From Isoptericola sp. AK164 (lineage in GTDB: Bacteria; Actinomycetota; Actinomycetes; Actinomycetales; Cellulomonadaceae), in NCBI RefSeq assembly GCF_029643425.1, contig NZ_CP119106.1, positions 2,914,001 through 2,978,000 of the forward strand: DNA of 64,000 nt, given 5' to 3'. Position numbers and translations under genes: made by a program. The first letter of the stretch is position 1. Every line of letters begins with the position of its first letter. Shown here piece by piece: positions 10,441 through 53,182 of this stretch. The notes beneath the pieces are model-generated. The model searched no databases, had not been told where the DNA came from, and saw nothing but the letters and a program-made list of their open reading frames with translations.

Positions 10441-10710
10441 GAGGTAGGCATCTCCTCGCCCAGGTAGGCAACCTCCCGGCGAGGTAGGCAACTCCTCGCC
10501 CAGGTAGGCAACCTCCCGGCGAGGTAGGCAACTCCTCGCCCAGGTAGGCAACCTCCCGGCGAGGTAGGCAACTCCTCGCCCAGGTAGGCAACCTTCTGGC
10601 GAGGTAGAGCGCGGCGACCTTGCCTACCTCACGAGCGAATGGCCTACCTCGCGGGTAAGTCGCCTACCTCGCGGGGAACGTGCCTACCTCGGCGGAAAGT
10701 TGCCTACCTC
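10441..10710. repeat. 3'-end array 1 of family G (GAGGTAGGCAAC, 20-bp period), two-way
   Basis: This fills the 310-bp gap between pspA and the convergent amidotransferase gene. Forward units begin at 10441, 10461, 10481, 10501, 10521, 10541, 10561 and 10581, with a decayed one at 10601. Reverse units (core GCCTACCTC) begin at 10621, 10641, 10661, 10681 and 10701. The 20-bp step never slips, even across the switch. Forward units alternate between GAGGTAGGCAACTCCTCGCC and CAGGTAGGCAACCTCCCGGC, giving a 40-bp super-repeat. In the forward half GGCGAGG and CCTCGCC flank a TAGGCAACT loop, so each pair of units can form local hairpins in RNA, and the two halves can pair with each other. Confidence 0.95.
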
Positions 10711-10721
10711 GCGGGAGGGCG

Positions 10722-11573
10722 TCAGGCGGCCTCGGCGTCGGTCGGCGTCTCGACGGCCCGCTCGTCCTCGTGCCCGACGTCGTCGCCCGCGTCGTCTGCC
10801 CGCGCGTCGGCGCCCCGTCCGACGCCGGCGGCCACCTGGCCCAGGAACGCCTCGGCCAGCATCGCCCCCGAGCGCGCGAGCTCGACGTCGTGCTCGACCA
10901 TCTGCGCGTGCACGGCAGCCGTCTCCACGTCGACGTGCGCGAGCGCCCAGCGCACCGCCGTCGTCGGGCCGGCCTCGGGGTGGAACTGCACGCCGAGCGC
11001 CGACCCCCACCGGAACGCCTGGTAGGGGTACATCTCCGACCACGCCAGCCACTGCGCGTCCTGCGGCGGCTCGATCACGGCGTCGGCGTGCATCTGCACG
11101 AACGACGTCGCGGCGCCCCGACCGTCGAGGTCCTCGGTGTCCTCGGCGCCGGCGGCCCGCGCGAGCGGGGCGACGACGGGGTCGGCGAGGGCCTCGGTGC
11201 GCCAGTAGACGGGGACGACGCCGGCCTCGCGCCCGGGCGGGGCGGCCACGGTCACGGTGCCCCCGCCGGCCACGGCCAGGAGCTGCGCCCCGAGGCAGAC
11301 CCCGAGAGTGGGCAGGTCGGCGGCGACGGCCTCGGCCAGGAGCGACCGGACGCCGGGCAGCCAGGGGGCCTCGTCGTCGGCGTAGGCGTTCATCTGGCCG
11401 CCCAGCACCACGAGACCGTCGCCGCACTCGGCGAGCGTCGGGACGGGCTCGCCGGCGAACAGCCGGACCACGCGGGTGTCGCCGAGCGCCGACCGCCACC
11501 GGTCGACGGGGACGTCGGAGCTGTGCTGCAGGACGGTGACTCGAGGCACCGCGGAGAACTCGAACTCGGACAC
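10722..11573 (-). CDS. Class I glutamine amidotransferase-like protein
   Basis: A 283-residue protein of the type 1 glutamine amidotransferase fold (GATase). The nucleophile elbow is LGVCLGAQLLAVAGGG (Cys near residue 94) and the His-Glu pair is in VQFHPEA (about 197-199), so the catalytic triad looks complete. GLVVLGGQMNAYADDEAPWLPGV is typical of stand-alone GMP-synthase-like amidotransferases of unknown acceptor. The last ~60 residues are charged and Ala-rich. The GTG at 11573 is used; a second GTG at 11549 is possible and no clear ribosome-binding site separates them. Its 3' end faces the reverse half of repeat array 1. Confidence 0.85.
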   Translation of the reverse strand: MSEFEFSAVPRVTVLQHSSDVPVDRWRSALGDTRVVRLFAGEPVPTLAECGDGLVVLGGQMNAYADDEAPWLPGVRSLLAEAVAADLPTLGVCLGAQLLAVAGGGTVTVAAPPGREAGVVPVYWRTEALADPVVAPLARAAGAEDTEDLDGRGAATSFVQMHADAVIEPPQDAQWLAWSEMYPYQAFRWGSALGVQFHPEAGPTTAVRWALAHVDVETAAVHAQMVEHDVELARSGAMLAEAFLGQVAAGVGRGADARADDAGDDVGHEDERAVETPTDAEAA

Positions 11574-11643
11574 GAGCGACGAGACTACTCCGCACGCGCC
11601 CGTCGGTCACCCCCCGTCACGCCCCCGCGCGTACGCTGTGCCC

Positions 11644-12246
11644 ATGGCCTCCCCCTTCTCCGAGCCGACCACCGTGCCGGCGCGCGGCACCGCGCGCACC
11701 ACCTACCTGCTGGTGGACGGCGAGAACATCGACGCCACCCTCGGCATGAACGTCCTCAACCGTCGTCCGAACCCCGAGGAGCGGCCCCGCTGGGACCGGA
11801 TCACCGGGTTCGCCCAGCGCGTCTGGGGGCAGGACGTCGTCCCCCTGTTCTTCCTCAACGCCACCAACGGCCAGATGCCGATGTCGTTCGTCCAGGCGCT
11901 GCTGGCGATGGGCTACCGTCCGATCCCGCTGGCCGCCAGCGGGGACGAGAAGGTCGTCGACGTCGGTATCCAGCGCACCCTGGAGGCCATCGCCGACCGC
12001 GACGCGGACGTGCTGCTGGCCAGCCACGACGGCGACTTCCTGCCGCAGATCGAGCGGCTCCTCGACGAGGACCGGCGGGTCGGCCTGCTGGCGTTCCGCG
12101 AGTTCGTCAACATGCAGCTCGCGGGGCTGACCACCTCCGGCCTGGAGATCTTCGACCTGGAGGGCGACGTGGACGCGTTCACGAGCCCGCTGCCGCGTGT
12201 GCGGATCATCCCGATCGACGAGTTCGACCCGCTGCGCTTCCTCTGA
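11644..12246 (+). CDS. NYN-domain (LabA/DUF88-like) protein, putative RNase
   Basis: A 200-residue protein with the NYN/PIN-like nuclease fold: acidic motifs YLLVDGENIDATLG near the N-terminus, SGDEKVVDVGIQRTL in the middle and LLASHDGDFLPQI after it, which together would bind the metal ion. FREFVNMQL and EIFDLEGDVDAF form the C-terminal part. Members of the family cut or process RNA, but the target is unknown here. The ATG lies 10 bp after a TACGCT -10-like box with no ribosome-binding site, which suggests a leaderless transcript; an in-frame GTG six bases upstream is an alternative. It converges with the membrane protein gene at 12335. Confidence 0.85.
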   Translation: MASPFSEPTTVPARGTARTTYLLVDGENIDATLGMNVLNRRPNPEERPRWDRITGFAQRVWGQDVVPLFFLNATNGQMPMSFVQALLAMGYRPIPLAASGDEKVVDVGIQRTLEAIADRDADVLLASHDGDFLPQIERLLDEDRRVGLLAFREFVNMQLAGLTTSGLEIFDLEGDVDAFTSPLPRVRIIPIDEFDPLRFL

Positions 12247-12334
12247 CCGGCGTCCGACCGGACCCGCGGCCCCCCGGGCCGCCCTTGTCCCCCGGGCCGC
12301 CCAGGTCCCCCGGACCGGGGGCCGCGTCGTCGCG

Positions 12335-13726
12335 CTACGCGACGTCGGCGGGCACGTCCCGCCGGCGCTCGCCGGGCAGCGCCGCGGACCGCTGGGCGAT
12401 CGTGATCGCCCACAGCGCCGCGATCGCGCCCAGGACGGTCAGCACGAGCACCACCCACAGGAAGCCGGTCAGGACCACGACGAGGACGGCCGCGACCAGC
12501 ACGGCGACGCGCAGCGCGTCGGCGTGCGCGCCGACCCAGCGGGCGAGCCGGCCGTCCTGGGCGGTGACCGTGGCCACCCACGGCCAGCGGCGGCCCGCAG
12601 CGACCAGCCAGCGCGGACGACCGAGCAGCACGCCGACCACGACGGTCACGACCGCGACGACACCCACGAGCCAGAAGATCTCGTGGATCTCCCCCGCGAC
12701 GGCCTCGTAGAGGGTGGTCGCGACCCGCTCGCCGTCCGCAGTGCGCGCCACGTCCACCACCAGGGTGCGCAGCTGGGCGACGAGCGCCGTGACCACGACG
12801 ACGCCGGCGAGCACCCCGAGGGCGAGCTGGACGGCGCCGCGGCGCCGGTCCGGCGCGACCCACACCGTGGCCACGATCGCCAGCACCGTCAGCGCCACCA
12901 GCGCCCACACGGCCCGGTCCACGAGCGTCACCGCGCCCTGGACCCCGTCGAAGGTCTCCCGGTCCATCAGCTCCACCTGGCCGAAGCCCTCGGGGAGCTG
13001 CCGGCCGAGCGCCTCGACGAGCTGCTCCCGCGCCTCCGGCGCCCGCTCGGACACCGCGTCCGGCACGGGGATGTCGCCGACGACGGCCCCCGCCTCCCCG
13101 AGCGACTCGCGCAGCGCGTCGGCGACCAACGGCAGCGTGTTGAGCATGACCGCGTCGTCGGTCAGGTAGACGTTCGGTCGTTCGTCGACGTCGGCCCGGG
13201 CCACGGCGACCACCCCGGCGTGCGCACGCTCGACGAGCTGCGGCACCCGGTCCGCGACGGCGTCGGAGGTGAGGGCGCGGTCCACGGCGGAGTCGACCCG
13301 CTCCTCGAGCGGTTCGACGATCAACGGGGTCAGGGCGGCGAGCGACGGCCGCTCGACCTGCCCGCCCAGCGCCTCCAGCAGCGGACCGGGTTCGACGTCG
13401 ACACGGGCCGCCAGGGCTGCCACGAGCGCGGCGTCGAGCTGGTCGAGACGCTCCGCGACCCGGGTGTCGAGGTCGAGCGCGAGCAGCACCTCGTCGGAGA
13501 CGGTGTCGGCCAGGGCGTCGTAGAACGCCGGGTCGTCGAGGGCGGGCTCGACGGTGTCCATGAACTGGTCGGTGTCGAGCACCGTGCGGTGGGCCCACAG
13601 GGCGAGGCAGGAAGCCACCACCAGCAACGTGGTGATCACGACCATCGAGCCGGCGACCCAGCGGCGGACGACGGGTCCGCGGCCGACGGGACGGACGGGC
13701 TGCTCGGGCGGGGACTGCTGGGTCAC
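12335..13726 (-). CDS. Polytopic membrane protein of unknown function
   Basis: A 463-residue protein that I do not recognise. The GTG at 13726 is chosen because GGGAGGA lies 8 bp before it. One membrane helix lies at about residues 25-47 (SMVVITTLLVVASCLALWA). An Ala/Asp/Glu-rich extracytoplasmic region of about 230 residues follows, with repeated short helices (DTDQFMDTVEPALDD, SDAVADRVPQLV). Four or five further membrane helices lie between about 280 and 445, including a closely spaced pair near the end. The gene is divergent from a two-component regulator gene, sharing a 132-bp intergenic region, so it may be a target or signal input of that system. No enzymatic motif is visible. Confidence 0.8.
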   Translation of the reverse strand: MTQQSPPEQPVRPVGRGPVVRRWVAGSMVVITTLLVVASCLALWAHRTVLDTDQFMDTVEPALDDPAFYDALADTVSDEVLLALDLDTRVAERLDQLDAALVAALAARVDVEPGPLLEALGGQVERPSLAALTPLIVEPLEERVDSAVDRALTSDAVADRVPQLVERAHAGVVAVARADVDERPNVYLTDDAVMLNTLPLVADALRESLGEAGAVVGDIPVPDAVSERAPEAREQLVEALGRQLPEGFGQVELMDRETFDGVQGAVTLVDRAVWALVALTVLAIVATVWVAPDRRRGAVQLALGVLAGVVVVTALVAQLRTLVVDVARTADGERVATTLYEAVAGEIHEIFWLVGVVAVVTVVVGVLLGRPRWLVAAGRRWPWVATVTAQDGRLARWVGAHADALRVAVLVAAVLVVVLTGFLWVVLVLTVLGAIAALWAITIAQRSAALPGERRRDVPADVA

Positions 13727-13858
13727 GAGGGTGTCCTCCCTGGTGGTGGCTGCCGGGACGAGCCTACCGACGTCGGGCACCGTGCGGCGCGCGCTGCCCG
13801 CACCGCGGACCGGGCCGGCGTTCAGGAAACTTCCAGCCCCACGGCGCACACTGGAGAC

Positions 13859-14605
13859 ATGGCCACCACCGACGCCAACGCACCCGAGGCACGCCTCGTC
13901 GTCGTCGACGACGAGCCCAACATCCGCGAGCTGCTGTCCACCTCGCTGCGCTTCGCCGGCTTCGAGGTGCACGCCGCCGAGGACGGGGCCGGTGCGTTGC
14001 AGCTGGTGCGGGACACCGAGCCGGACCTGGTGGTGCTCGACGTGATGCTGCCCGACATGGACGGGTTCACCGTCACCCGACGCATGCGCGCCACCGGACG
14101 GCACACCCCGGTGCTGTTCCTGACCGCGCGCGACGACACCCAGGACAAGGTCCAGGGGCTGACGGTCGGCGGCGACGACTACGTGACCAAGCCGTTCAGC
14201 CTCGAGGAGGTCGTGGCGCGCATCCGTGCCGTCCTGCGCCGCACGGCCGGCGGCGAGCCCGAGGACGACGCCGTGCTGCGCGTGGGGGACCTGGAGCTCG
14301 ACGAGGACTCCCACGAGGTGCACCGTGCCGGGGTCGAGATCGACCTCTCCCCCACCGAGTTCAAGCTGCTGCGCTACCTCATGCTCAACGCCGGCCGGGT
14401 GCTGTCCAAGGCGCAGATCCTCGACCACGTCTGGCAGTACGACTGGGGCGGGGACGCCAACATCGTCGAGTCCTACATCTCGTACCTGCGCCGCAAGATC
14501 GACCACGTGACGGTCCCGGGACCCGACGGCGCCGACGTCGACCTCCCGGCCCTCATCCACACCAAGCGGGGCGTGGGCTACCTGCTGCGGACCCCGCCGC
14601 GATGA
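13859..14605 (+). CDS. OmpR-family response regulator
   Basis: A 248-residue two-component response regulator. The receiver domain spans about residues 13-125, with acidic pair VVDDEPN, the phospho-acceptor Asp in VVLDVMLPDMDG, the Thr in LFLTARDD and the Lys in YVTKPFS. The winged-helix DNA-binding domain follows (LSPTEFKLLRYLMLNAGRV, IVESYISYLRRKID, LIHTKRGVGYLLR). It overlaps the histidine kinase start by 4 bp, so the two are coupled. It resembles the MtrA/PhoP/TcrX group but cannot be placed more precisely. The divergent membrane protein gene is the most obvious nearby candidate target. Confidence 0.93.
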   Translation: MATTDANAPEARLVVVDDEPNIRELLSTSLRFAGFEVHAAEDGAGALQLVRDTEPDLVVLDVMLPDMDGFTVTRRMRATGRHTPVLFLTARDDTQDKVQGLTVGGDDYVTKPFSLEEVVARIRAVLRRTAGGEPEDDAVLRVGDLELDEDSHEVHRAGVEIDLSPTEFKLLRYLMLNAGRVLSKAQILDHVWQYDWGGDANIVESYISYLRRKIDHVTVPGPDGADVDLPALIHTKRGVGYLLRTPPR

Positions 14606-16095
14606 CGGACCCGCGTCCCGACGGCGAGCGCCGCTGGAGCTGGGTCGCGCGCACGCCCCTGCGCGTCCGTCTGGTGGCGATCATCGTCCTGCTGCTCGGC
14701 GCCGGGCTCGTGCTGGCCGGGCTGACGACCCGGACGGTGGTGTCGAACTACCTCGTCGACGAGCTGGACAACCAGCTCACCCAGTCCGCCCAGAGCGTGG
14801 CGCGCCTGACGACGCTGAACCCGGCCGAGGGCGGCCAGCGCATCCCCAGCGACTACGCGGTGACGCTGCGCAGCTGCAACGGGCTCGACGGCGGCCCGGT
14901 GGGCTGGGAGGAGACCCTCGACCGCTTCGGCGAACCGGAGATCCCCGACGAGTCGCTGGACACCGTCGTGGCCCGCGGGATCAAGCCGTTCACGGTGGGC
15001 TCCTCCGGCGGCGGCGACCCGTCCCAGTGGCGCGTCGTGTCGATCCCGTGCAGCCCGTTCCGCGGCGCGGAGGTGCAGGGCGCCGCCTACGTCGCGCTGC
15101 CGATGGCGGACGTCGAGGAGACGAGCGAGTACCTGGGCCGTTCGCTGCTGTGGATCGGTCTCGGCATCGTGCTGCTCGGCGGGGCCCTGGCGCTGTGGCT
15201 GGTGCAGCGCGCCTTCCGGCCGCTGCGCCGCATCGAGGCGACGGCGGCCGCGATCGCCGAGGGCGACCTGTCGCAGCGCGTGCCGGAGGACCAGCCCGCC
15301 AGCACCGAGGTCGGGTCGCTCTCGCTGTCGTTGAACGCGATGCTCACCCAGATCGAGGCGGCGTTCGCCGCCCAGGAGGCCTCGGAGCAGCGCATGCGTC
15401 GGTTCGTCTCGGACGCCAGCCACGAGCTGCGCACGCCGCTGGCCACGGTCAAGGGGTACGGCGAGCTCTACCGGATGGGCGCCCTGGACTCGCCCGACAA
15501 GGTCGAGGACACCATGGGCCGGATCGAGGACTCGGCACGCCGGATGGGCTCGCTGGTGAACGACCTGCTGGTGCTCGCCCGGCTGGACGAGGGCCGTCCG
15601 CTGCGCCGGGAGCCCGTGGACCTGGCCGCCCTGGCCCGGGACACCGCCCAGGACCTGCACGCCCTGGACCCGGGACGCACCGTCCACGTGACCGGACTGC
15701 GGCCCGGCGAGCCCCCGCCGTCGTCCCTGCCGGTCACGGGTGACGCCGACCGGCTGCGGCAGGTGCTGACCAACCTGGTGGGCAACGTCGCCCGGCACAC
15801 GCCGGCCGGCTCGCCGGCGGAGCTGGCCGTGGGCACGTCGCCCGAGGGCGACGCCGTGGTCGAGGTCCGCGACCACGGACCGGGGGTCTCCGCGGAGCAG
15901 GCGGACAAGATCTTCGAACGGTTCTACCGGGCGGACTCCTCGCGCAACCGGGAGTCCGGGGGCTCGGGCCTCGGCCTGGCGATCGTGGCCGCGATCCTGG
16001 GGGCCCACGGCGGCAGCACCTCGGTGCACGAGACGCCCGGCGGCGGTCTGACCGTGCGGGTTCAGCTTCCGCGCGCGGGCGGCTACGATGCGTGA
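14602..16095 (+). CDS. Two-component sensor histidine kinase
   Basis: A 497-residue membrane kinase, partner of the preceding regulator (ATGA overlap). Two membrane helices, at about 30-50 and 180-200, enclose a sensor loop of roughly 130 residues. A HAMP domain follows (RAFRPLRRIEATAAAIAEGDLSQRV), then the H-box SDASHELRTPLATVKGYGEL, and an ATPase domain with LTNLVGNVARHTP (N-box), VEVRDHGPGVS (G1), FERFYRADSS and SGGSGLGLAIV (G2). It autophosphorylates on the H-box His and passes phosphate to the regulator. The sensed signal cannot be deduced from the loop. All catalytic motifs are intact. Confidence 0.93.
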   Translation: MTDPRPDGERRWSWVARTPLRVRLVAIIVLLLGAGLVLAGLTTRTVVSNYLVDELDNQLTQSAQSVARLTTLNPAEGGQRIPSDYAVTLRSCNGLDGGPVGWEETLDRFGEPEIPDESLDTVVARGIKPFTVGSSGGGDPSQWRVVSIPCSPFRGAEVQGAAYVALPMADVEETSEYLGRSLLWIGLGIVLLGGALALWLVQRAFRPLRRIEATAAAIAEGDLSQRVPEDQPASTEVGSLSLSLNAMLTQIEAAFAAQEASEQRMRRFVSDASHELRTPLATVKGYGELYRMGALDSPDKVEDTMGRIEDSARRMGSLVNDLLVLARLDEGRPLRREPVDLAALARDTAQDLHALDPGRTVHVTGLRPGEPPPSSLPVTGDADRLRQVLTNLVGNVARHTPAGSPAELAVGTSPEGDAVVEVRDHGPGVSAEQADKIFERFYRADSSRNRESGGSGLGLAIVAAILGAHGGSTSVHETPGGGLTVRVQLPRAGGYDA

Positions 16096-16198
16096 CGGCC
16101 TGGTTCCGGGTCGCCCGACGGCAACGTCGGCGGGGCGGCGTAATCTGGAACTACGGCTGGTCACAACATCCGGCCCCTAGGTGAAGGTCTTGATAGCG

Positions 16199-16927
16199 AT
16201 GGGCGTGCTCCACGCCGACGCACCACAGTGGTTCCTCTCCGCGTTCGTCCGGACGTGTCACGGAGCCGGCGCCACCGCCTCGGAGGACGACGTCCGAGCG
16301 GTCGGGACCGAGCTCATCGACCGATGGTCGGAGACGGATCGCCACTTCCACAACCTGCGCCATCTCGCCGCCGTCCTGCACCGGGTCGACGAGCTCGCGC
16401 ACGAGACGCACGAGCCGGACCTGGTCCGCCTCGCGGCCTGGTACCACGGCGCCGTGTTCGACGCCGACCGCAAGATCGCCTACGCGACGCGCGGCGGCGA
16501 GCAGACCACGCTGAGCGCCGAGCTGGCACGCGACCAGCTCACCGGGCTCGGAGTGCCCGCCCCGCGGGCCGATCGCGTCGCCGAGCTGGTCGAGACCATG
16601 GCCCGCCACAAGGCGCTGCCGGGGGACTTCGACTCGGCGGTGCTCAACGACGCCGACCTCGGCATGCTGGCCGCGGAGCCGCAGCGCTACAAGGAGTACG
16701 TGGCGGCGATCCGCGCCGAGTACGCGCACATCCCGCTCCCGGACTACCTCGACGCGCGGATCAAGGTGATCTCGAAGCTGCTCGGGCGGCCGCAGCTCTT
16801 CGTCAGCCCGCTGGGGCTGACGTGGGAGGAGCCGGCCCGGCAGAACCTCGACGCGGAGCTCCACCGGCTGGTCAAGGAGCGTCGTCGGCTCGAGGCCCAG
16901 ACCCCCGCGGGGCCGGCCCGCCAGTAG
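16199..16927 (+). CDS. HD-domain-like protein of unknown substrate
   Basis: A protein of 242 residues. HFHNLRHLAAVL and AAWYHGAVFD, about 50 residues apart, resemble the metal-binding H...HD pattern of the HD phosphohydrolase superfamily, and the second segment has His followed by an Asp a few residues on. VLNDADLGMLAAEP continues the helical core. Many actinobacteria have this stand-alone protein and no function is established that I know of. The ATG at 16199 is used because AAGGT precedes it by 11 bp; a GTG at 16181 in the same frame would add six residues. The 3' end runs directly into repeat array 2. Confidence 0.7.
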   Translation: MGVLHADAPQWFLSAFVRTCHGAGATASEDDVRAVGTELIDRWSETDRHFHNLRHLAAVLHRVDELAHETHEPDLVRLAAWYHGAVFDADRKIAYATRGGEQTTLSAELARDQLTGLGVPAPRADRVAELVETMARHKALPGDFDSAVLNDADLGMLAAEPQRYKEYVAAIRAEYAHIPLPDYLDARIKVISKLLGRPQLFVSPLGLTWEEPARQNLDAELHRLVKERRRLEAQTPAGPARQ

Positions 16928-16948
16928 CCCCAGCAGCCGCCGCTCGCC

Positions 16949-17040
16949 GAGGTAGGCAACTCCGGGCCGAGGTAGGCAACCCCTCGGCGAGGTAGGCAAC
17001 TCCGGGCCGAGGTAGGCAACCCCTCGGCGAGGTAGGCCGT
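16949..17040 (+). repeat. 3'-end array 2 of family G, one-way
   Basis: Five units of GAGGTAGGCAAC begin at 16949, 16969, 16989, 17009 and 17029 (the last decays after GAGGTAGGC), all in the sense direction of the HD-type gene that ends 21 bp upstream. The spacers alternate TCCGGGCC and CCCTCGGC. GCCGAGG and CCTCGGC therefore flank a 9-nt TAGGCAACC loop and can form 7-bp hairpins in the transcript. Confidence 0.93.
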
Positions 17041-17063
17041 CGTCCACAGGCTGTGGACGACGG
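17037..17063. repeat. Short perfect palindrome at the end of array 2
   Basis: Arms CCGTCGTCCACAG and CTGTGGACGACGG flank a single G. It begins inside the last array unit and lies 75 bp before the WXG100 start. It could cap the array as a hairpin terminator for the HD-type gene or form part of the downstream promoter region; nothing in the sequence decides. Confidence 0.6.
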
Positions 17064-17137
17064 CGGCGCGCCCGCACGCACCCGCCTAGCGTCGTGAGCA
17101 GCCCGGTCCACCGGGACCCACGACGAAGGAGCAGCAC

Positions 17138-17428
17138 GTGCGATACGAGGTCGACAGCGATCGGGTGGCGCAGGCGAGCGCGGCGGTGAACGGTTCCGTC
17201 GGGGCGATCCGCGCCGAGGTCGGGGCGATGATGCGTCACCTGCAGGATCTCCAGGCGAGCTGGCACGGCAGCGCGGCGACGTCGTTCGCCGGCGTGATGA
17301 CGCAGTGGCAGTCCGCCCAGACCCAGGTCGAGACCGCCCTGGACTCGGTCACCACCGCTCTGCAGGCGGCGTCGCAGACCTACTCCGACGCGGAGAGCCA
17401 GGCGACCCGCCTCTTCGCGACCCGCTGA
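17138..17428 (+). CDS. WXG100 family protein (ESAT-6-like)
   Basis: A 96-residue helical hairpin protein. The GTG start follows AAGGAG. The turn motif WHG lies at about residues 43-45 (LQASWHGSAATSFAG) between two Ala/Gln-rich helices, and YSDAES near the C-terminus fits the YxxxD/E export signal of type VII substrates. Such proteins are secreted by ESX-type machines, usually as dimers. There is only one copy here and no FtsK/SpoIIIE-type ATPase (EccC) or other secretion gene in the window, so it is an orphan that must use machinery elsewhere or work alone. Confidence 0.9.
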   Translation: MRYEVDSDRVAQASAAVNGSVGAIRAEVGAMMRHLQDLQASWHGSAATSFAGVMTQWQSAQTQVETALDSVTTALQAASQTYSDAESQATRLFATR

Positions 17429-17447
17429 CCCGCACCAGCGCCCCCAC

Positions 17448-17497
17448 GCACGACGGCGGCCGGCCACCTCCGCAGAGGTGACCGGCCGCCGTCGTGC
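17448..17497. terminator. Bidirectional hairpin between WXG100 gene and groEL
   Basis: A 23-bp stem with one mismatch and a CGCA loop sits 20 bp after the WXG100 stop and 38 bp from the groEL stop. The arms begin GCACGACGGCGGCCGG. Its position between two convergent genes supports two-way termination. Confidence 0.75.
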
Positions 17498-17535
17498 AGC
17501 GAGACGCGGTCAGGACCGCGCCGGGCGCGTCGGGA

Positions 17536-19239
<1,704 letters not shown>

Positions 19240-19324: not shown

Positions 19325-19327
19325 GAC

Positions 19328-22308: not shown

Positions 22309-22381
22309 AGCCGCCTGTCGGGTTCGAACCGACGACCTTCCGTTTACAAGACGGGAGCTCTACCAGCTGAGCTAAGGCGGC
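22309..22381 (-). tRNA. tRNA-Thr (anticodon TGT)
   Basis: Reading leftward, a 73-nt cloverleaf has acceptor arms GCCGCCT/AGGCGGC, D-arm GCTC/GAGC, anticodon loop CTTGTAA (TGT, reads ACA) and T-arm GTCGG-TTCGAAC-CCGAC. The discriminator T is followed by an encoded CCA (22306-22308). The first anticodon-stem pair is a C-A mismatch. No integrase or attachment site is next to it. Confidence 0.95.
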
Positions 22382-30624: not shown

Positions 30625-30787
30625 GAGGTAGGCAACTCTCAGCCGAGGTAGGCAAGTTTCTGCCGAGGTAGGCAAGATCTCAGCCAGGTAGGCACACTCC
30701 GGCCGACGGAGGGGCGTTACCTACCTCGCGGGAACCTTGCCTACCTCGCGGGAACCTTGCCTACCTCGGCGGAAGGTCGCCTACTTC
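30625..30787. repeat. 3'-end array 3 of family G, two-way
   Basis: It fills the gap between the convergent DUF4032 and rlmB genes. Forward units start at 30625, 30645, 30665 and 30685 (a decayed one near 30705). Reverse units (core GCCTACCTC) start at 30718, 30738, 30758 and 30778. The last reverse unit contains the rlmB stop codon. Each half reads in the sense direction of the gene it follows. The half-arrays are each in strict 20-bp register but, unlike array 1, the register shifts at the switch. Confidence 0.94.
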
Positions 30788-44953: not shown

Positions 44954-45005
44954 CGCCTGGGCCGCCTGTGAAACTTGGTCAGCACCGATTTTCGAGAGGA
45001 CACCC

Positions 45006-45674: not shown

Positions 45675-45675
45675 C

Positions 45676-45708: not shown

Positions 45709-45727
45709 CCGAGAGGTCGGCACCGGC

Positions 45728-45782
45728 CCGGACGCACGAAGGGGCCCTTCCCGCGGTGGGAAGGGCCCCTTCGTGCGTCCGG
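45728..45782. terminator. Strong bidirectional terminator between phoU and gpmA
   Basis: A perfect 25-bp stem with a 5-nt GCGGT loop (left arm begins CCGGACGCACGAAGGGG) lies between the convergent phoU and gpmA genes. Confidence 0.9.
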
Positions 45783-45793
45783 CGGGCGAGCGG

Positions 45794-46534
45794 CTACTTG
45801 CCCTGGCTGGCCACGGCCGCGATCGCGTCCTTGGCCGCCTCCGGGTCGAGGTAGGTGCCGCCCGGGTTGGTCGGCTTCAGCGTCTCCGGGTCCAGCTCGT
45901 AGACCAGCGGGATGCCCGTGGGGATGTTGAGGCCGGCGATGGTCTCGTCGTCGATGCCGTCGAGGTGCTTGACCAGCGCGCGCAGCGAGTTGCCGTGCGC
46001 GGCGACCAGGACGGTCTTGCCGTCCTGCAGGTCCGGCACGATCGCCGACTCCCAGTACGGCAGCGCCCGCTCGAGGACCTGCTTGAGCGCCTCGGTCCGC
46101 GGGATCGGCTCGCCGGCGTAGCGCACGTCGGCGTCCTGGGAGAACTCCGAGCCCAGCTCGATCTCGGGCGGCGGCACGTCGTAGGAACGGCGCCAGAGCA
46201 TGAACTGCTCCTCGCCGTACTGGTCGCGGACCTGCTTCTTGTCCTTGCCCTGCAGGTCGCCGTAGTGACGCTCGTTGAGACGCCAGCTGCGCTTGACCGG
46301 GATCCAGTGCCGGTCGGCGGTGTCGAGGGCGAGGTTCGCCGTCATGATCGCGCGGCGCAGCAGCGAGGTGTGCAGGATGTCCGGCGTCACGCCGGCGTCC
46401 TTCAGGAGCTCACCACCACGCTTCGCCTCCTCGGTGCCCTTCTCCGACAGGGGCACGTCGACCCAGCCGGTGAAGAGGTTCTTCGCGTTCCACTCGCTCT
46501 CGCCGTGGCGGAGCAGCACGAGGGTGTAGGTCAT
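45794..46534 (-). CDS. gpmA: 2,3-bisphosphoglycerate-dependent phosphoglycerate mutase
   Basis: A 246-residue glycolytic enzyme that interconverts 3- and 2-phosphoglycerate. The phospho-histidine motif is [12 protein letters not shown] (His near residue 9), with [41 protein letters not shown] and the second active His in [13 protein letters not shown]. The ATG at 46534 begins the conserved region; the longer frame upstream is not conserved. Confidence 0.96.
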
Positions 46535-46678
46535 GGCCCCATCCTGCCCTGCCGGGGCGCCCGTGTGCACCACGGGCCGCGATGCGGACCCGGATGTGGT
46601 CGCACCACAGGGCGTGGTGTTCGCCACGCGTGTTCTGACGTCCGCCCCGCCGGGCTCCGCCCGTCTTGACGCACCCGC

Positions 46679-46717
46679 GACGACGGGCCGCACGTCATGA
46701 CAGCGCGGCCCGTCGTC
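46679..46717 (-). terminator. Hairpin terminator after the Ddn-like gene
   Basis: A perfect 13-bp stem (GACGACGGGCCGC/GCGGCCCGTCGTC) with a 13-nt loop begins 4 bp after the stop codon, between this gene and gpmA. The rest of the 186-bp gap should hold the gpmA promoter. Confidence 0.7.
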
Positions 46718-46720
46718 CGG

Positions 46721-47155
46721 TCAGTCGCGCTCGAGGACGAAGACGGGGATCTCGCGGTCGGTCTTGCGCTGGTAGTCCGCGTAGTCGGGCCACGCCTCGA
46801 CGGCCCGCTCCCACCAGACGGCCTTCTCGTCGCCGGTGACCTCCCGGGCCACGTAGGTGTGCTTCTCCGGACCGTCCTGGAGCTCCACGCGGGGGTTCGC
46901 CACGATGTTGTGGAACCACACGGGGTGCTGCGGGGCGCCGCCCATCGAGGCGACGACGGCGTAGGCACCGTCGTGCTCGACCCGCATCAGCGGGATCTTG
47001 CGCACCTTGCCGGACTTCGCGCCGACGGTCGTGAGGATGATGACCGGCTTGTCGCGCATCGTGGTGCCCTCGGTGCCTCCCGAGGCCTCGTAGGTCTCGA
47101 CGTGGTTCGCCACGAACTCGGACGGGCTGGGGACGTACTCTCCGGTGATCGCCAT
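46721..47155 (-). CDS. Deazaflavin (F420)-dependent nitroreductase family protein (Ddn-like)
   Basis: A 144-residue split-beta-barrel protein of the Ddn family. [58 protein letters not shown] is the family core, with the cofactor phosphate-binding GAKSGK-R motif. Members use F420H2 to reduce quinones and other substrates. The start at ATG 47155 gives the usual [15 protein letters not shown] opening; an upstream ATG adds 11 residues. Neither has a strong ribosome-binding site. Repeat array 4 lies upstream. Confidence 0.9.
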
Positions 47156-47217
47156 GCCCGGGGCAACATCGGTGCCGGGCGCGGGCATTCCCGCCGGGCC
47201 CCTCCCGACGGCCCGAC

Positions 47218-47309
47218 GTTGCCTACCTCGGCAGAACGTTGCCTACCTGGGCTGAGAGTTGCCTACCTCGCCGGGAGGTTGCCTACCTCGGCGGAGGGTT
47301 GCCTCCCTC
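47218..47309 (-). repeat. 3'-end array 4 of family G, one-way
   Basis: Five units begin on the plus strand at 47218, 47238, 47258, 47278 and 47298. On the minus strand they read GAGGTAGGCAAC, in the sense direction of mshA, whose stop codon overlaps the last (decayed, GAGGGAGGCAAC) unit. Two units carry GAGGTAGGCAACCTC, a small self-complementary hairpin. There are no opposite-orientation units, and no gene ends from the other side. Confidence 0.93.
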
Positions 47310-48630
47310 AGCGGGCGCGGCGGACCTTCGCGGCCTGGGAGTACACGTCCAGCATCGCCGCCGCTGCACGGTCCCAGGAGAACCGCTCGCTCGCCCGCCG
47401 GGCTCCGGCCGCGAGCCGCTCGCGCCGCGCCTCGTCGCCCAGCAGCGCGCCGAGCTCGGCCGCCCACGTCCACGGGCTGTGGTCGTCGACCAGCACCCCG
47501 GAGACGTCGTCGATCACCACGGTCCGCAGCCCGCCCACGGCCGCCGCCACGACCGGCGTACCGCAGGCCTGCGCCTCGGCCGCCACCAGCCCGAAGGACT
47601 CGTTGTGCGACGGCACCGCCACGACGTCGGCCGCCCGGTACCAGTCGGCCAGCTCCGCCCGCGAGACCGGCGGTCGCACGACGACGTGGTCCGTCACGCC
47701 CATCTGGTGGGCCAGCGCCTCCAGCTCGCGCACCGCCGTCGGACGTCCGCTGGCACCGCCCAGCACCGCCAGGGTCGGCACCCGCGACCCCCCGCCGTCG
47801 CGCAGGGCGTCCGGGTCGGCGACGGTCGCGGCGTGGTCGGCCATCACGCCCAGGGCGCGCACCAGCACGTCCGGACCCTTGAGGAGCTGAACACGGCCCG
47901 CGAACAGCACCACGGGACGGTCCGTGGGCAGCCCGAGCCGCTCGCGCAGCGCCCGCCGCGCCTGCGCCGTCGTCTCCCCCGGACCAGGTTCCAGCGGGGC
48001 GTAGGTGGCCAGGTCGACGCCCGGGGCCACGACGTGCACGCGGTCCGGGTCGGCGCCGTAGTGGCCCACCAGGTCCTCGGCCTCCTCGGTCGTGGAGGCG
48101 ACCAGCGCGTCGGACTCGGCGACGACCTGCTCCTCGCCGATGACGCGGCTGTGCGGCTCGGGGGTGTCCCCCGGGGCCAGCGCGGCGTTCTTGACCCGCG
48201 CCATCGTGTGCATCGTGTGCACCAGCGGCACGTCCCAGCGGTCGGCGCCGAGCCAGCCCACCTGCCCCGACAGCCAGTAGTGCGAGTGCACGACGTCGTA
48301 CCAGCCGGCGGGGCGGTGCGCCTCGGCCCGCAGCACCCCGGCGCTGAAGAAGCACAGCTGCGCCGGCAGGTCGTTCTTGTCCAGGCCCTCGTACGGTCCC
48401 GCGGCGACGTGCACGACGCGGATGCCCGGCTCCGCCTGGACCACCTTGGGCTGCGCCGACGACGTGGCGCGCGTGTAGATCTCCACCTCGGCCCCGCGGC
48501 GGGCCAGGGCCCGGGACAGCTCGAGGACGTAGACGTTCATCCCGCCGGCGTCCCCGGTGCCGGGCTGGTCCAGGGGCGAGGTGTGCACCGAGATCATCGC
48601 CACCCGCGGCCCCTCGCGGTCCGTGCTCAC
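47308..48630 (-). CDS. mshA: D-inositol-3-phosphate glycosyltransferase (mycothiol synthesis)
   Basis: A 440-residue GT4 glycosyltransferase that joins N-acetylglucosamine to inositol 3-phosphate, the first step of mycothiol synthesis. The motif [44 protein letters not shown] and the donor site [20 protein letters not shown] and [22 protein letters not shown] are typical of MshA. GTG 48630 overlaps the lactonase stop by 4 bp. The terminal codons run into repeat array 4. The presence of mshA confirms a mycothiol-using actinobacterium. Confidence 0.95.
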
Positions 48631-49718
48631 CCGGCCTCCAGCACGCACGACGGCGGCGTGGCCCACGGCGCGCGGTCGACGACCTCGCCCGCTCCGGAGG
48701 CCGTGTCGATCCGCACCGTGACGAGCTCGCTCGTGCCCTGCAGGGCCACCACGGCCAGCTCGGTCCCGTCGGCGCCGGCGAGGACCTCGTGGTGCCGCGG
48801 CCAGCCACCCTCGCCGAGCGCGACGTCGGCGAGGTGCGTGATCTGCGGGGACTCGCCGTCGGACACCGCATGCACCGCCAGCAGGTCCGGGCCACGCACG
48901 CCGACGTGGAGCCGGCGGCCGTCGGCGCTGAGCGTGAGGTGACCGGGGAACGCCTCCCCGACCGGCGCCTGCGGGGACACCGGGACGCTGCCCACGTGCC
49001 GCCACGCGCCGCCCTCGGCCGGCAGCAGCAGGTGCAGGCGGGCGTCGAGCTCGCCGGCCACGACCAGCCCTCCGCCGGGCAGCACGACGAGATGCCGGGG
49101 TCCGGTACCGGCGGGCAGCCAGGCCGCGACCGAGCCGCCGTCGTCGGGCAGGAGCCCGTGGTCGCCGGGCGCCGGGTCCAGGGGGTAGCTCCGCACGACG
49201 TCGGCGCCCAGGTCCGTGACGAGCACCCGGCGACCGGTCATCGTCACCTGGTGGGCGTGCGGGCCCTCCTGCCGGTCCGTGACCGGTCCGGCGCCCGAGC
49301 CCGCGTGCAGGGACCGGTGCTCCGGCGTGGGCGCGCCGTCGGCGGCCAGGCCCAGGGCCGCGGCGACGCCGTCGCCGTAGTTCGCGACCCACACGGTCCG
49401 GTCCGCGGCGGCGACGTGGCAGGGGTCGTCCCCGCCGGAGCCGACGGACGACAGCACCGCCAGCGCGCCGTCACCGCCGTCCTGCAGGGCGGTGAGCGCG
49501 CCGTGCGGCGTCTCGGTCACGGCGTACAGGACCGGGGCGGACGGGTGACGGGCGAGGAACGACGGCGAGGCCAGCTCGGTGGCGAGCCACGGCTCGCCGA
49601 GCGACCCGTCACCGCGGTCCAGGTCGACGCGCCAGACGCCCTCGCCGCTCCCGGCGGCTGCGCCGGCCGCGGGATAGGTCCCGACCCACAGCGGCACGGA
49701 GGCGCTCGAAGTGGTCAT
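48627..49718 (-). CDS. Lactonase family (seven-bladed beta-propeller) protein
   Basis: A 363-residue protein of the lactonase family (PF10282), related to YbhE-type 6-phosphogluconolactonase. It opens with [24 protein letters not shown] and has propeller-type repeats, including [63 protein letters not shown] and [11 protein letters not shown]. The start is ATG 49718. It overlaps mshA by 4 bp, an unexplained operon partner. Enzymatic activity is inferred only from the family; many members are unproved. Confidence 0.88.
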
Positions 49719-49797
49719 GGGTCCAGCGTAGGCGTCCGACGGCGGTGCTCCCGGCGGTGCGCCGGCGGGCGGGCCGCCGGGCCCCGGACAGCACCGC

Positions 49798-49825
49798 GCC
49801 CCGACCGGGCAGTGCCGATCGGGGC
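49798..49825 (-). terminator. Hairpin terminator after lsr2
   Basis: An 11-bp stem with one mismatch (GCCCCGACCGG/CCGATCGGGGC) and a 6-nt loop lies 20 bp after the lsr2 stop. Confidence 0.6.
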
Positions 49826-49844
49826 GAGGGCGGTCGGTGGCGGC

Positions 49845-50177
49845 TCAGTGCGCCGCTTCGTAGGCCTCCAGCACGCGCGCCGGGATCCGGCCGCGGTCGT
49901 TCACCTCGTGGCCGTTCTCGCGTGCCCACTCGCGGATCTTCTGCAGCTGCGCACGGTCCGTGCGGCCGCGGCGCGGGCCTGCCGCGCGGGTCGCGGTCTT
50001 CGGGCCGGACTTGCGGCCGTGCCCGATCCACTTCGCCAAGGACTCCCGCAGCTCGGCCGCGTGGGCCGAGGTGAGGTCGATCTCGTAGGAGACGCCGTCC
50101 AGCGCAAAAGTGACGGTCTCGTCACCCTCCGTGCCGTCGATGTCATCCAACAGCACGACCTGGGTCTTCTGGACCAC
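49845..50177 (-). CDS. lsr2: Nucleoid-associated protein Lsr2
   Basis: A 110-residue H-NS-like protein that coats AT-rich DNA. The N-terminal dimerisation and bridging domain is [33 protein letters not shown]; the DNA-binding domain includes [28 protein letters not shown] with the RGR minor-groove motif. GTG 50177 follows GAGAAGGG. Its promoter region is unusually AT-rich for this genome, so autoregulation is likely. Confidence 0.97.
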
Positions 50178-50218
50178 GTTGCCACCCTTCTCAGGATCCG
50201 AAATGCAATGACGATTAA

Positions 50219-50248
50219 AGGATGCCCGAATCAGGAATGCAATGTCAA
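50219..50248 (-). promoter_or_regulatory. lsr2 promoter in an AT-rich patch
   Basis: On the minus strand a consensus TTGACA (50243-50248) is followed after 18 bp by CATCCT (50219-50224). The surrounding 50200-50290 is far richer in A and T than neighbouring DNA and contains the direct repeat AATGCAATG twice (50201 and 50236). This is the DNA type Lsr2 itself prefers. Confidence 0.6.
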
Positions 50249-50281
50249 CTCACGCGCGATGGAATGAAGAGATGACCTGAG

Positions 50282-50446
50282 TCAATCATTCATGTCCGCG
50301 CGCTCGGAACGCGCCTGCTCGAACTGCTGCTGCGCGGCCCGTTCATTCCGGTCGGCCCGCACGATCTTGCGCATGGCGAACCAGAAGAGGAGTCCGACAC
50401 CGATCGACGGCACGAGACCCGCGACGACTGCCCAGAAAGTGTCCAC
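50282..50446 (-). CDS. Small single-pass membrane protein
   Basis: A 54-residue protein that is easily missed. GTG 50446 follows GAGGAAGG at ideal spacing. One membrane helix (FWAVVAGLVPSIGVGLLFWFAM) is followed by a basic segment (RKIVRADRNERAAQQQFEQARSERADMND) expected to be a cytoplasmic helix. It starts 11 bp after the lysS stop and is co-directional, so it is probably the last gene of the lysS unit. I do not recognise a function. Confidence 0.75.
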   Translation of the reverse strand: MDTFWAVVAGLVPSIGVGLLFWFAMRKIVRADRNERAAQQQFEQARSERADMND

Positions 50447-50457
50447 GATCGCCTTCC

Positions 50458-51972
50458 TCAGTGCGTGGGCTTGACGAGGGGGAAGAGGATCGTCTCCCGG
50501 ATTCCCGCCCCCGTGAGAGCCATGAGAAGTCGGTCGACACCCATCCCCATGCCGCCGGCCGGCGGCATGGCGTACTCCATCGCGGTGAGGAAGTCCTCGT
50601 CGAGCGCCATCGCCTCGTCGTCGCCGGCCGCGGCGAGCCGCGCCTGCTCGGCGAACCGCTCGCGCTGCACGACCGGGTCCACGAGCTCGGAGTAGGCCGT
50701 GGCGAGCTCGAAACCGCGCACGTACAGGTCCCACTTCTCCACCACGCCCGGGATGGTGCGGTGGGCGCGGGTCAGCGGCGAGGTCTCCACCGGGAAGTCG
50801 CGCACGAAAGTCGGCGCGTACAGGTGGTTGCCGACGTGGTGCTCCCACAGCTCCTCGACCAGCTTGCCGTGGATCATCTGCTTCGGGTCGATCGAGATGT
50901 CCACCTTCTCGGCGAGCTCGTTGAGGTGCTCGACCGAGGTCTCGGGCGTGATTTCCTCACCGACCGCCTCGGAAAGGGATCCGTACATCGTGATGTGCGC
51001 CCATTCGCCGCCGAGGTCGTACTCCTCGCCGTCCGGGAGCGTCACCACGGTCGTGCCGAGCGCTTCGCGCGCGGCGGTCTGCACGAGGTCCTGCGTGAGG
51101 GCCGCCATGGTGTCGTAATCACCGTAGGCCTCATAGGCCTCGAGCATCGCGAACTCCGGGGAGTGCGACGAGTCCGCACCTTCGTTGCGGAAGTTGCGAT
51201 TGATCTCGAAGACGCGTTCCACGCCACCCACGACGGCTTCCTTGAGGAACAGCTCCGGCGCGATACGCAGGAACAGCTCCATGTCGTAGGCATTCATGTG
51301 GGTCGCGAAAGGACGCGCCGAGGCACCCGAGGCGACGGTCTGCAGCATCGGCGTCTCGACCTCGAGGAAGTCGCGGGCGTGGAAGTTCTCGCGCAGCGAG
51401 CGCACGACGGCGGCACGCAGGCGGACCATGTCCCGGGCCGCCGGGCGCGCGATGAGGTCGACGTACCGCTGACGGACCCGCGCCTCCTCGGAGAGCTCCT
51501 TGTGCAGCACCGGCAACGGGCGCAGCGCCTTCGAGGCGAGCTGCCAGGAGTCGGCGAAGATGCTCAGCTCCCCGCGCCGCGAGGCCCCCACGCGGCCGTG
51601 GACGAACACGTGGTCGCCGAGATCGACGTCACCCTTGAACGCGGTGAGCGCCTCCTCCCCCACCACCTTCTGGCTGAGCATGGCCTGCAGCCGGTTGCCC
51701 TCGCCGTCCTGGAGGGCGACGAAGCAGAGCTTGCCCGTGTTGCGCAGGAACACGACCCGGCCGGCGACACCGGCGAGGTCGTCGGTCTCCTGACCGGCCT
51801 CCAGGTGGTCGTAGGCGGCGCGGACCTGCGCGATCGTGTGCGTGATCGGCAGGTTGACCGGGTAGGCCTCGCCGCCGGAAGCGATGATCCGGTCGCGCTT
51901 CTCACGGCGGACCCGGAGCTGCTCGGGCAGGTCGTCGGACACGGCGGAGTCGACATTCTCGGGGGTGGTCAC
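50458..51972 (-). CDS. lysS: Lysyl-tRNA synthetase (class II)
   Basis: A 504-residue class II synthetase that charges tRNA-Lys. The OB-fold anticodon domain covers about residues 60-165 ([21 protein letters not shown]). Class II motif 1 is around [10 protein letters not shown], motif 2 [20 protein letters not shown], and motif 3 [28 protein letters not shown] 51972 gives about 20 residues before the conserved start. A stretch of the gene (about 50930-51300) has slightly more A+T at third codon positions than its neighbours. A long perfect palindrome lies upstream. Confidence 0.97.
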
Positions 51973-52010
51973 CGTCCGATTCTACGGTCCGGCGCCAAAC
52001 CGCCCGTGAC

Positions 52011-52078
52011 CGGGTTCGGTCGAGCGGAACGGGTTCGGTCAGCATCTCGACCGAACCCGTTCCGCTCGACCGAACCCG
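52011..52078. repeat. 30-bp perfect palindrome between lysS and nadC
   Basis: Two perfect 30-bp arms (left begins CGGGTTCGGTCGAGCGGAAC) flank an 8-bp loop AGCATCTC. Each arm itself contains GGGTTCGGTC twice, so four copies of the decamer GGTTCGGTC-type element are packed in 68 bp. It lies in the 140-bp region between two divergent genes, where a terminator is not expected. Confidence 0.9.
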
Positions 52079-52112
52079 ACCCAGGGGGACCCGCGGGCAG
52101 TACCGTGTCGCC

Positions 52113-53051
52113 GTGAGCACGCCCGAGCACCCCCTCCCGGTCCACGCCTCGCCGTCCGCCGTGGATCCCACCCTCGACCCGGCGTGGACCCGCCGCGCCG
52201 TCGAGATCGCCCTGGAGGAGGACCTCGGCCCCGCACCCGGCCGGGACGTGACCTCCCAGGCGACCATCCCCGCGTCCGACGTCGGCACGGCCGACCTGGT
52301 GGCGCGCGAGGCCGGGACGGTGGCCGGCCTCGTCGTCGTCGACGAGACGCTGGCGCAGACCGCGACACGGCTCGGGCTGCCCGCCCCCGCGGCGACGTTC
52401 CACGCCCAGGACGGCGACGCCGTCGTGCCCGGGCAGGTGCTGGCCCGGCTCACCGGGCCGGTGCAGGTGCTGCTCGTGGCCGAGCGCACCCTGCTCAACC
52501 TGGCCTCCCGCGCGTCGGGCGTGGCCACGGCGACGGCGGAGTTCGCCCGCGAGCTGGCCGGCACCGGGGCGCAGGTGCTCGACACCCGCAAGACGACGCC
52601 GGGGCTGCGCGCCCTGGACAAGTACGCCGTGCGGGCCGGCGGCGGGACGAACAAGCGCATGGGCCTGTACGACGTCGCGATGGTCAAGGACAACCACGTC
52701 GTGGCCGCGGGCTCGGTGCGCGGCGCCGTCGAGGCCGTGCGACGCACCTTCCCCGACGTGCTCGTGCAGGTCGAGGCCGACACCACCGACCAGGCCCTGG
52801 AGGCGCTCGACGCCGGGGCGGACTTCCTGCTGCTGGACAACATGCCGACGCCGGTGCTCGCCGAGACGGTGGCCGCGGTGCGCGCCCGGGAGGGTCGCGA
52901 CGGGGTCCCGGAGCACGTCGAGCTCGAGGCCACCGGCAACCTCACCGTGGAGCGGGCGCGCGAGGTCGCGAGCACCGGGGTGGACTACCTGTCCGTGGGG
53001 GCGCTGACGCACTCGGCACCGATCCTCGACCTGGCGCTCGACCTGCGCTGA
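52113..53051 (+). CDS. nadC: Nicotinate-nucleotide pyrophosphorylase (quinolinate phosphoribosyltransferase)
   Basis: A 312-residue enzyme that turns quinolinate and PRPP into nicotinate mononucleotide. ALEEDLGPAPGRDVTSQATIP, TLLNLASRASGVAT, LDTRKTTPGLRALDKYAVRAGGGTNKRMGLYD, VEADTTDQALEAL and LDNMP are the conserved segments with the substrate-binding Arg and Lys residues. GTG 52113 is 12 bp after a TACCGT -10-like box with no ribosome-binding site, which suggests a leaderless transcript. It converges on nadB, which makes the preceding product, so NAD synthesis genes here are on opposite strands. Confidence 0.95.
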   Translation: MSTPEHPLPVHASPSAVDPTLDPAWTRRAVEIALEEDLGPAPGRDVTSQATIPASDVGTADLVAREAGTVAGLVVVDETLAQTATRLGLPAPAATFHAQDGDAVVPGQVLARLTGPVQVLLVAERTLLNLASRASGVATATAEFARELAGTGAQVLDTRKTTPGLRALDKYAVRAGGGTNKRMGLYDVAMVKDNHVVAAGSVRGAVEAVRRTFPDVLVQVEADTTDQALEALDAGADFLLLDNMPTPVLAETVAAVRAREGRDGVPEHVELEATGNLTVERAREVASTGVDYLSVGALTHSAPILDLALDLR

Positions 53052-53110
53052 GCCGAGCCCTCGCGCCAGCAGGGGACGACGGCGAACCAACGGGACGTCG
53101 TCGTCCCGCG

Positions 53111-53182
53111 GTGCCCTACCTCGGCGGGAACTTGCCTACCTCGGCCGGACGTTGCCTACCTCGGCGGGAGGTTGCCTACCTC
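53111..53182 (-). repeat. 3'-end array 5 of family G, one-way
   Basis: Four units begin on the plus strand at 53111, 53131, 53151 and 53171. On the minus strand they read GAGGTAGGCAAC, sense for nadB. The nadB stop TAG lies inside the first unit met (AGGTAGGC). Although nadC converges from the left, 60 bp after its stop, no forward-orientation units are present. Confidence 0.93.

Follow-up and report, generated by a model that had tools for sequence, protein, structure and literature searches.

Phased rows of a short word at gene ends in Isoptericola: candidate recognition sites written in species-typical words

Just past the ends of several genes of the soil bacterium Isoptericola sp. AK164 (Cellulomonadaceae) stand rows of one short word, repeated head to tail at a step of exactly 20 bp, and the question is what such rows, here called arrays, are for. 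They were noticed in a stretch of 64,000 nucleotides (assembly GCF_029643425.1, contig NZ_CP119106.1, positions 2,914,001 to 2,978,000 of the forward strand; hereafter the window), from which a sequence-only reading by a model proposed a family of gene-end elements. The arrays are an element with a fixed place at gene ends, a fixed word and a fixed step, in which a conserved core alternates with free spacers. The word is mostly typical of the species, and related species carry different words, sometimes at the same gene ends, which suggests that a component of the cell reads them.

A search of the window with the core of AK164, GAGGTAGGCAAC, at no more than two mismatches yields 38 matches where 2.67 are expected, and none of 100 shuffles reaches 38. 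Five arrays account for 33 of the 38, and the step is exactly 20 bp inside every arm, in agreement with the coordinates and the period first proposed for them. The arrays, together with two hairpins beside them, are as follows (G and L numbers, used further below, are our handles for genomes and loci).

10441..10592, + strand: array 1, forward arm; 8 units, starting 29 bp past the pspA stop
10619..10710, - strand: array 1, reverse arm; 5 units, 11 bp past the stop of the glutamine amidotransferase gene
16949..17040, + strand: array 2, one-way; 4 full units and 1 partial unit, from the stop of the 'HD-type' gene to a hairpin
17036..17064, + strand: hairpin closing array 2; 13-bp stem, loop GGC
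30625..30696, + strand: array 3, forward arm; 4 units, 4 bp past the stop of the DUF4032 gene
30716..30787, - strand: array 3, reverse arm; 4 units; rlmB takes its stop codon from the TAG of the first (GAAGTAG)
47218..47309, - strand: array 4, one-way; 5 units past mshA, whose stop shares 2 bases with the first unit
53111..53182, - strand: array 5, one-way; 4 units; nadB takes its stop codon from the TAG of the first (GAGGTAG)
53073..53107, - strand: possible hairpin past array 5; GGGACGACG..CGTCGTCCC, 9 bp, its fold not better than shuffles (z -0.1)

Gene calls place the arms at the seven gene ends that had been named, and nadC does end near array 5 without units of its own, that array having one arm only. 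The gene names agree at family level with Pfam matches (PspA, GATase, DUF4032, SpoU methylase, glycosyltransferases, FAD-binding) except that of the 'HD-type' gene, which has no Pfam match at E<=0.001.

The AK164 genome is a single contig of 3,576,703 bp, in which 566 tandem repeats have been counted (PMC10425560). At no more than one mismatch the core occurs 266 times (139+127), against 9 for a reversed-pattern control. Context was examined in a sample of 78 evenly spaced 20-kb stretches, their spacing set in advance and independently of the arrays, which with the window comprise 1.624 Mb or 45% of the genome; all gene contexts reported here rest on our own codon-based caller, which gave 1438 genes and 89.5% coding. 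In the sample there are 26 gene-end sites with 40 array arms between them: six two-way and six one-way in convergent gaps, eight two-way and five one-way in tandem gaps, and one (L089) at the edge of a stretch. No site lies in a gene. Sites are missing from every one of 241 divergent gaps (30 bp or longer) and occupy 12 gaps of 149 between convergent genes and 13 of 475 between tandem genes (Fisher's test of divergent gaps against the rest, p = 0.0004). All 77 exact cores in the sample are inside arrays, with none standing alone and none in genes. The proposal of a gene-end element family is borne out by these sites.

The same cannot be said of the proposal that the core strictly follows the sense of transcription. 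In a convergent gap the + arm is always sense to the left gene and the - arm to the right, so that five of the seven cases in the window are uninformative. Across the sample 30 arms are sense and 10 of the 40 antisense; at all eight two-way sites in tandem gaps one arm is sense and the other antisense, and the one-way sites there divide into three sense and two antisense. The latter two are L096, beside which the gene is a weak call, and L106; a further one-way antisense array, L220, occurs in G150. Tandem gaps thus show no sense rule, and a sense-only RNA element is not implied. The placement at gene ends stands in AK164, then, but the counter-test named with the proposal goes partly against it: a strand bias relative to the adjacent gene is not shown, and the avoidance of promoters holds for the divergent gaps of AK164 but is broken by two arrays in other species. 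What the two-way sites do show is a fixed order, all 14 in AK164 reading '-> <-' (p = 0.0001); among those of G136 and G141, which use another word, four read '-> <-' and two are reversed.

The consensus of 174 units is C-G-AGGTAGGC-AAC followed by N-YYYC-SSC. Among 129 distances between successive cores (no more than two mismatches, any phase, within 120 bp), 120 measure 20 bp and six 40, the remaining three being 12, 21 and 72. Between adjacent units within an arm 50% of the positions in the spacer (13-19) are different, and 2% of those in the core (2-9). As a partial guard against the bias that comes from finding units by their core, in-register positions between the first and last unit were read with no match requirement; 94 of the 95 have three mismatches or fewer, and TAGGC (positions 5-9) is present in all 95. 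One step upstream of the first unit four to five mismatches are found in only 4 of 40 arms, the commonest number being nine, and one step downstream of the last unit in 16 of 40, three or fewer being excluded at both flanking steps by the definition of arms. Single 8-bp spacers recur at more than one site in 21 of 113 cases, while none of 161 spacer-core-spacer 28-mers is common to different sites, and recent copy-and-paste of array pieces among sites was rejected on this count. Word and register are thus maintained as the spacers change, a pattern that favours recognition and disfavours recent copying; selection acts on word and register.

Beyond AK164, a search for its core in 221 genomes of the family revealed expansion in one other only, that of Isoptericola chiayiensis KCTC 19740 (G134), with 297 copies; all others have 51 or fewer. 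At the orthologous ends of rlmB, nadB and pspA in the 18 genomes of the genus, other species bear arrays of other words. An unbiased count over the convergent gaps of four sampled species puts 20 on top among lags 14-30 in all of them, narrowly so in AK164 and G136. Lag 20 has 1869 repeated 8-mers in AK164, 112 in G146, 761 in G150 and 180 in G136, and lags 19, 21 and 22 have at most 234, 63, 20 and 60, respectively; in all four the commonest lag-20 8-mers spell the word of the species. Another short phased repeat was seen in this count of 8-mers, at a lag of 19 bp, with the 8-mers GTTCGGTC/GACCGAAC recurring in intergenic DNA of AK164 and G136.

A matrix of words against genomes restricts GAGGTAGGCAAC to AK164 and I. 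chiayiensis, GAGTCAGCGCA to G136 and G141, and GAGTCAGGAC to G146; GAGGTAGCGCG is found in G148-150, and words beginning GAGGTAGT overlap among G137, G140, G143 and G145. A step of 22 bp is seen with GAGATAGAGAACC, in one 3-unit array of G144 and one 2-unit array of G143 only; G144 has in addition four CGAGNYAG trimers at 20 bp. In a tree of three proteins (which omits G149, its sequence being short) AK164 and G146 are sisters with a support of 100 yet use different words, and the more distant I. chiayiensis carries the word of AK164.

Three copies of the degenerate word CGAGNYAG at 20 bp occur in 14 of the 18 genus genomes, with 4 to 168 matches each. Outside the genus 11 of 203 family genomes, in five genera, have such trimers, ten of them with 1-9 matches and G215 with 116; a reversed-trimer control gives matches in G137 (1), G149 (2), G053 (1) and G215 (21). 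The loci examined from genera g3, g4, g6 and g16 are all at gene ends. The 116 trimers of G215 (genus g24), with its 21 in the control, are perhaps another 20-bp tandem repeat. Across the order, four genomes out of 396, each belonging to this genus, contain GGTAG trimers, and across the class the CGAGNYAG trimer occurs in 2 of 394, namely AK164 and one other (1 match, control 1). As far as these patterns reach, the arrays belong to this family and are expanded in this genus. Contexts were also tabulated for nine further species of the genus, in 42 rows that include some sites twice: 27 convergent, 10 tandem, 1 divergent and 1 edge, with 3 matches of 2 units each inside genes (two in G146, one in G150). 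The rlmB ends of 24 other genera, of which three rows were unreadable, contain one GAGGTAG hairpin (g3, L179) and a weak direct repeat (g16, L173).

The closest of the genomes compared offers the most direct view of a change of word. By three proteins G146 is the nearest of the 17 other genus genomes (96, 94 and 97% identity to AK164); at the DNA level pspA is 93% and the 'HD-type' gene 90% identical, with third positions at 83% and 74%. Among orthologous gene ends arrays are present in both genomes at five, in AK164 only at two, in G146 only at one and in neither at 126 (p = 3.7e-7), a result that is tempered by the choice of the G146 stretches, two of the three shared sites being already known to bear arrays; without these two the counts are 1, 2, 1 and 126 and p = 0.046. 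The third shared site, not known beforehand when the stretches were chosen, is the end of the 'HD-type' gene (window 16927). In G139, which has no array there, a hairpin (..GTCGTCCACAGGCTGTGGACGAC..) identical to that closing array 2 follows the stop directly. In AK164 four units and a partial one of GGTAGGCAAC are located between stop and hairpin, and in G146 three units and a partial one of GTCAGGAC are located between the same stop and a nearly identical hairpin.

Folding divides the sites of AK164 into two kinds. The two-way sites, 14 in number, fold into structures much more stable than those of their shuffles (mean z -11.3, none above -6.2), and the centres of two of them (L056, L062) are perfect palindromes with arms of 28 and 30 bp. 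For the 12 one-way arrays the gain over shuffles is slight (mean z -0.9, range -3.9 to +2.7). Spacers at mirror positions of the two arms have a likeness of 0.34-0.48 at ranks 0-4 and 0.75 at rank 5 (a single pair), against 0.46 between sites, and 3 of 52 mirror pairs reach 7/8, compared with 107 of 3727 pairs of spacers from different sites. Mirror spacers are no more alike than others, and it follows that only the centres behave as kept hairpins. At the pspA end a stem of at least 12 bp with no more than one mismatch is found in eight of the nine readable array-free species, the ninth having a long imperfect hairpin (G138 and G143 were not readable). The notion that array and hairpin are alternatives to one another holds at pspA and fails at rlmB and nadB.

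Hairpins and shared centres were also observed in or beside arrays elsewhere in the genus. The centres of two-way sites in G145 and G141 (L122, L125) contain a common long hairpin with GCACGGTCGCGTTCACGGGC and CCCTCCACTTCGGG, within arrays of different words; CGCTCGRATGAATCGGTCGCTGCGCTCCCTCTGCTCTCGCGCGCAC is common to the array centres of G150, G148 and G149 (L130, L132, L133); and in I. chiayiensis (L034:2690-3180) about three tandem copies of a hairpin unit of about 66 bp adjoin a two-way array. The genus has a second gene-end family, too, consisting of long near-perfect hairpins with the base CTGTGGG(T/C) or GTTGTGRGCGCGAT, at the following loci:

L129, L157, L158, L161, L264 (8573 ff.), L265 (~8.0 kb), L266 (18620 ff.): hairpins of the second family

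From the place, the word, the register, the dialects and the changed words at shared sites we infer a factor that reads the rows. On this view recognition sites would follow one another at exact 20-bp intervals in each array, at the end of a transcription unit, with a hairpin-forming centre enclosed by the two-way sites. A putative trans-acting factor, probably a cooperative DNA-binding protein, would read CGAGNYAG with its species-typical extension and would contribute to ending transcription, or to insulating it, from either side, acting as a roadblock or in support of a terminator. That the arrays are phased sites for such a sequence-specific factor at transcript ends, aiding termination or insulation, is in our judgment possible, with a chance clearly below even. 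The broader idea of a 'gene-end code', in which species-specific words in phased rows are read by a putative factor, factor and word change together, and the word is rewritten at shared ends, may be held tentatively, as not far short of an even chance. DNA would be the better substrate, given that both arm directions occur and that 20 bp is close to two helical turns; the transcribed position ahead of a hairpin would also allow RNA binding. The ending or insulating of transcription is a weaker step than the existence of the factor, and is suggested by the gene-end place, the hairpin centres, the end of the 'HD-type' gene and the stems at the pspA end. High-GC actinobacteria have few classical U-tract terminators.

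A number of observations weigh against this explanation. The sharing of sites between AK164 and other species is not significant with G150 (p = 0.35), G136 (0.16) or I. chiayiensis (0.27), species that share fewer sites than G146 does; and the arrays are dispensable at a given gene, a site in one species often facing a short array-free gap in another, as where a gap of 209 bp in G150 has counterparts of 10 bp (AK164) and 6 bp (G146). Nor is the bond between species and word complete, for GAGGTAGCGCG also forms one 2-unit array in G140, two words coexist in G143, extensions are mixed in G137, G138, G140 and G145, and four of the 18 genus genomes are without the CGAGNYAG trimer at 20 bp. The two arrays in divergent gaps are L145:348-458 in G150, lying 7 bp before the nadC start, and L281 in G144. 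With regard to termination, the 70 bp after one-way arrays have a mean z of -0.45 and fall below -2 in only 2 of 12 cases, window 17036-17064 being one of them. Stems of at least 12 bp were found at rlmB in only two of seven array-free rows and at nadB in none of nine, some rows being cut by contig ends, and the pspA end of four of six array-bearing species has such a stem as well, three of these being formed from array units. Taken together, the stems of array-bearing species, the folds after one-way arrays and the results for rlmB and nadB argue against a firm link to terminators.

Known systems provide partial likenesses. A named family with this core was found neither in Rfam nor in the open-access literature, a coverage to which most subscription papers do not belong, in agreement with the sequence-only reading, to which no such family was known. 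No match above the gathering score lies at the arrays in an Rfam scan of the window. A search of phage and plasmid DNA with one array and one word gave no match, and an origin from such DNA was rejected on the basis of these two queries. Terminator repeats of the TTF-I/Sal-box kind in animal ribosomal DNA (rDNA) are tandem short protein sites past the gene end that stop the polymerase, and their words vary by species. They serve one kind of locus in eukaryotes, whereas the present arrays adjoin dozens of ordinary genes and are not known to have a homologue or a bound protein. The TAACTGA direct repeats of Beggiatoaceae resemble the arrays in being a short intergenic word in direct repeats with a patchy spread, but differ in that the word has 7 nt, stands in the main genome mostly just upstream of start codons and is one and the same across distant groups (PMC4679880). 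The remaining Rfam matches in the window are the msiK RNA motif (RF01747; 27991-28050, +) and a tRNA (22309-22381, -).

Other explanations turn on how the arrays arose and spread. They could be mobile or selfish repeats of the repetitive extragenic palindromic (REP) type, tolerated only off genes and promoters, with different elements spreading in each species. REPs and their bacterial interspersed mosaic elements (BIMEs), the GTAG-tagged repeats of the REP-associated tyrosine transposase (RAYT) system, are likewise mostly downstream of genes, form inverted pairs, carry GTAG and make up species-particular families (PMC3733652). GTAG is present in the GGTAG words and missing from that of the GAGTCAG species; the REP trait of scarcity between divergent genes is seen in AK164, with the two exceptions in other species, and these exceptions also suit a mobile repeat. 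So does gap length, the version with the array being 92-446 bp longer in five of six compared ends. The array unit, however, is not palindromic and forms long head-to-tail rows with an exact step and free spacers, and the Y1 transposase PF01797 is absent from all 18 genus genomes while matching 5 of 14 controls, other transposases not having been searched for. REP/RAYT membership was rejected on these grounds, the unit and the missing PF01797. REPs without RAYT exist, so that the absence of the Y1 transposase alone is not exclusive. The lack of long copying between sites, even as single spacers recur, and of any lone exact core in the AK164 sample also speak against a mobile repeat, as do spacers near saturation beside cores that are not, which is unexpected of an idle element; we consider this explanation unlikely. 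Could the arrays instead be written from a template by a CRISPR- or telomerase-like activity (CRISPR, clustered regularly interspaced short palindromic repeats)? Identical words at a fixed step, variable spacers, sharp edges and the change of word in a sister genome are what such writing would give, and the sharp gene-side edge, the absence of long copying between sites and the different word at the same place after the 'HD-type' gene fit it. CRISPR arrays too combine a constant repeat with spacers of fixed length, but the present ones are set apart by size and place, with 12 + 8 bp, dozens of gene-end sites and spacers that have a consensus. The constraint of these spacers to N-YYYC-SSC, repeated spacers in an arm that resemble ordinary slippage, and the want of a candidate enzyme make template writing highly improbable; writing by reverse transcriptase was rejected because PF00078 is found in 0 of 18 genus genomes while matching 3 of 14 controls, an absence that counts against the REP-like explanation as well. 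A self-recognition word settled in terminators, for DNA uptake or something similar, would find its model in the DNA uptake sequences (DUS) and uptake signal sequences (USS). The DUS of Neisseriaceae are words of about 12 nt that have dialects with a common core, occur as inverted pairs in terminators and may contain the stop codon, but they number in the thousands and are commonly in genes too (1543-3770 copies per named genome; PMC3630211). Here there are 266 copies, and all exact sample cores are in phased arrays outside genes and in strict 20-bp register. By analogy DUS dialects are the nearest parallel in evolution; as an account of the arrays themselves, a self-recognition word of this kind is very improbable.

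Two further explanations concern what the arrays might do in the transcript. They may be intrinsic terminators, the two arms pairing in RNA as a long hairpin. The strong folds of the 14 two-way sites, the two perfectly palindromic centres and the clean stems that array units form in G137, G140, G141 and G144 are consistent with this, but the one-way sites, 12 of the 26, barely exceed shuffles in folding, there is no clear conservation of pairing outside the centre, and the pairing of arms requires no word common to the whole genome. The paired-arm stem as a general function was rejected because mirror spacers are no more alike than others and because one-way arrays have scant structure, and intrinsic termination as the explanation of the arrays seems to us decidedly unlikely. 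Alternatively, the arrays might offer stop codons in all frames, 20 and 22 not being multiples of 3, and so catch ribosomes that read through. Of 30 sense arms, 12 have a first unit whose TAG doubles as the stop codon of the gene, although TAG accounts for only 157 of 1389 stops overall (p = 5e-5), and TAG is present in every inner unit. G136 and G141 have the word GAGTCAG, and five of their gene ends, at a distance of -8, likewise take the stop from the TGA of the reverse strand. In the GAGTCAG species, however, many arms have no stop in the sense strand, and a quarter of the AK164 arms are antisense; a purely translational stop array was rejected as a general rule on account of the arms without a sense stop, and we regard this explanation as very improbable.

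A sequence-specific reader is what the findings point to: a gene-end element across most of the genus, in a fixed register, with words that differ between sister species at shared sites. Should the arrays be an unread repeat instead, it would be an unusual one, in which core and register are kept while spacers are free, showing no trace of long copying and lacking every mobilising enzyme searched for. The same gene end bears word A, word B or no array in different species of Isoptericola, and clean experiments are thereby possible.

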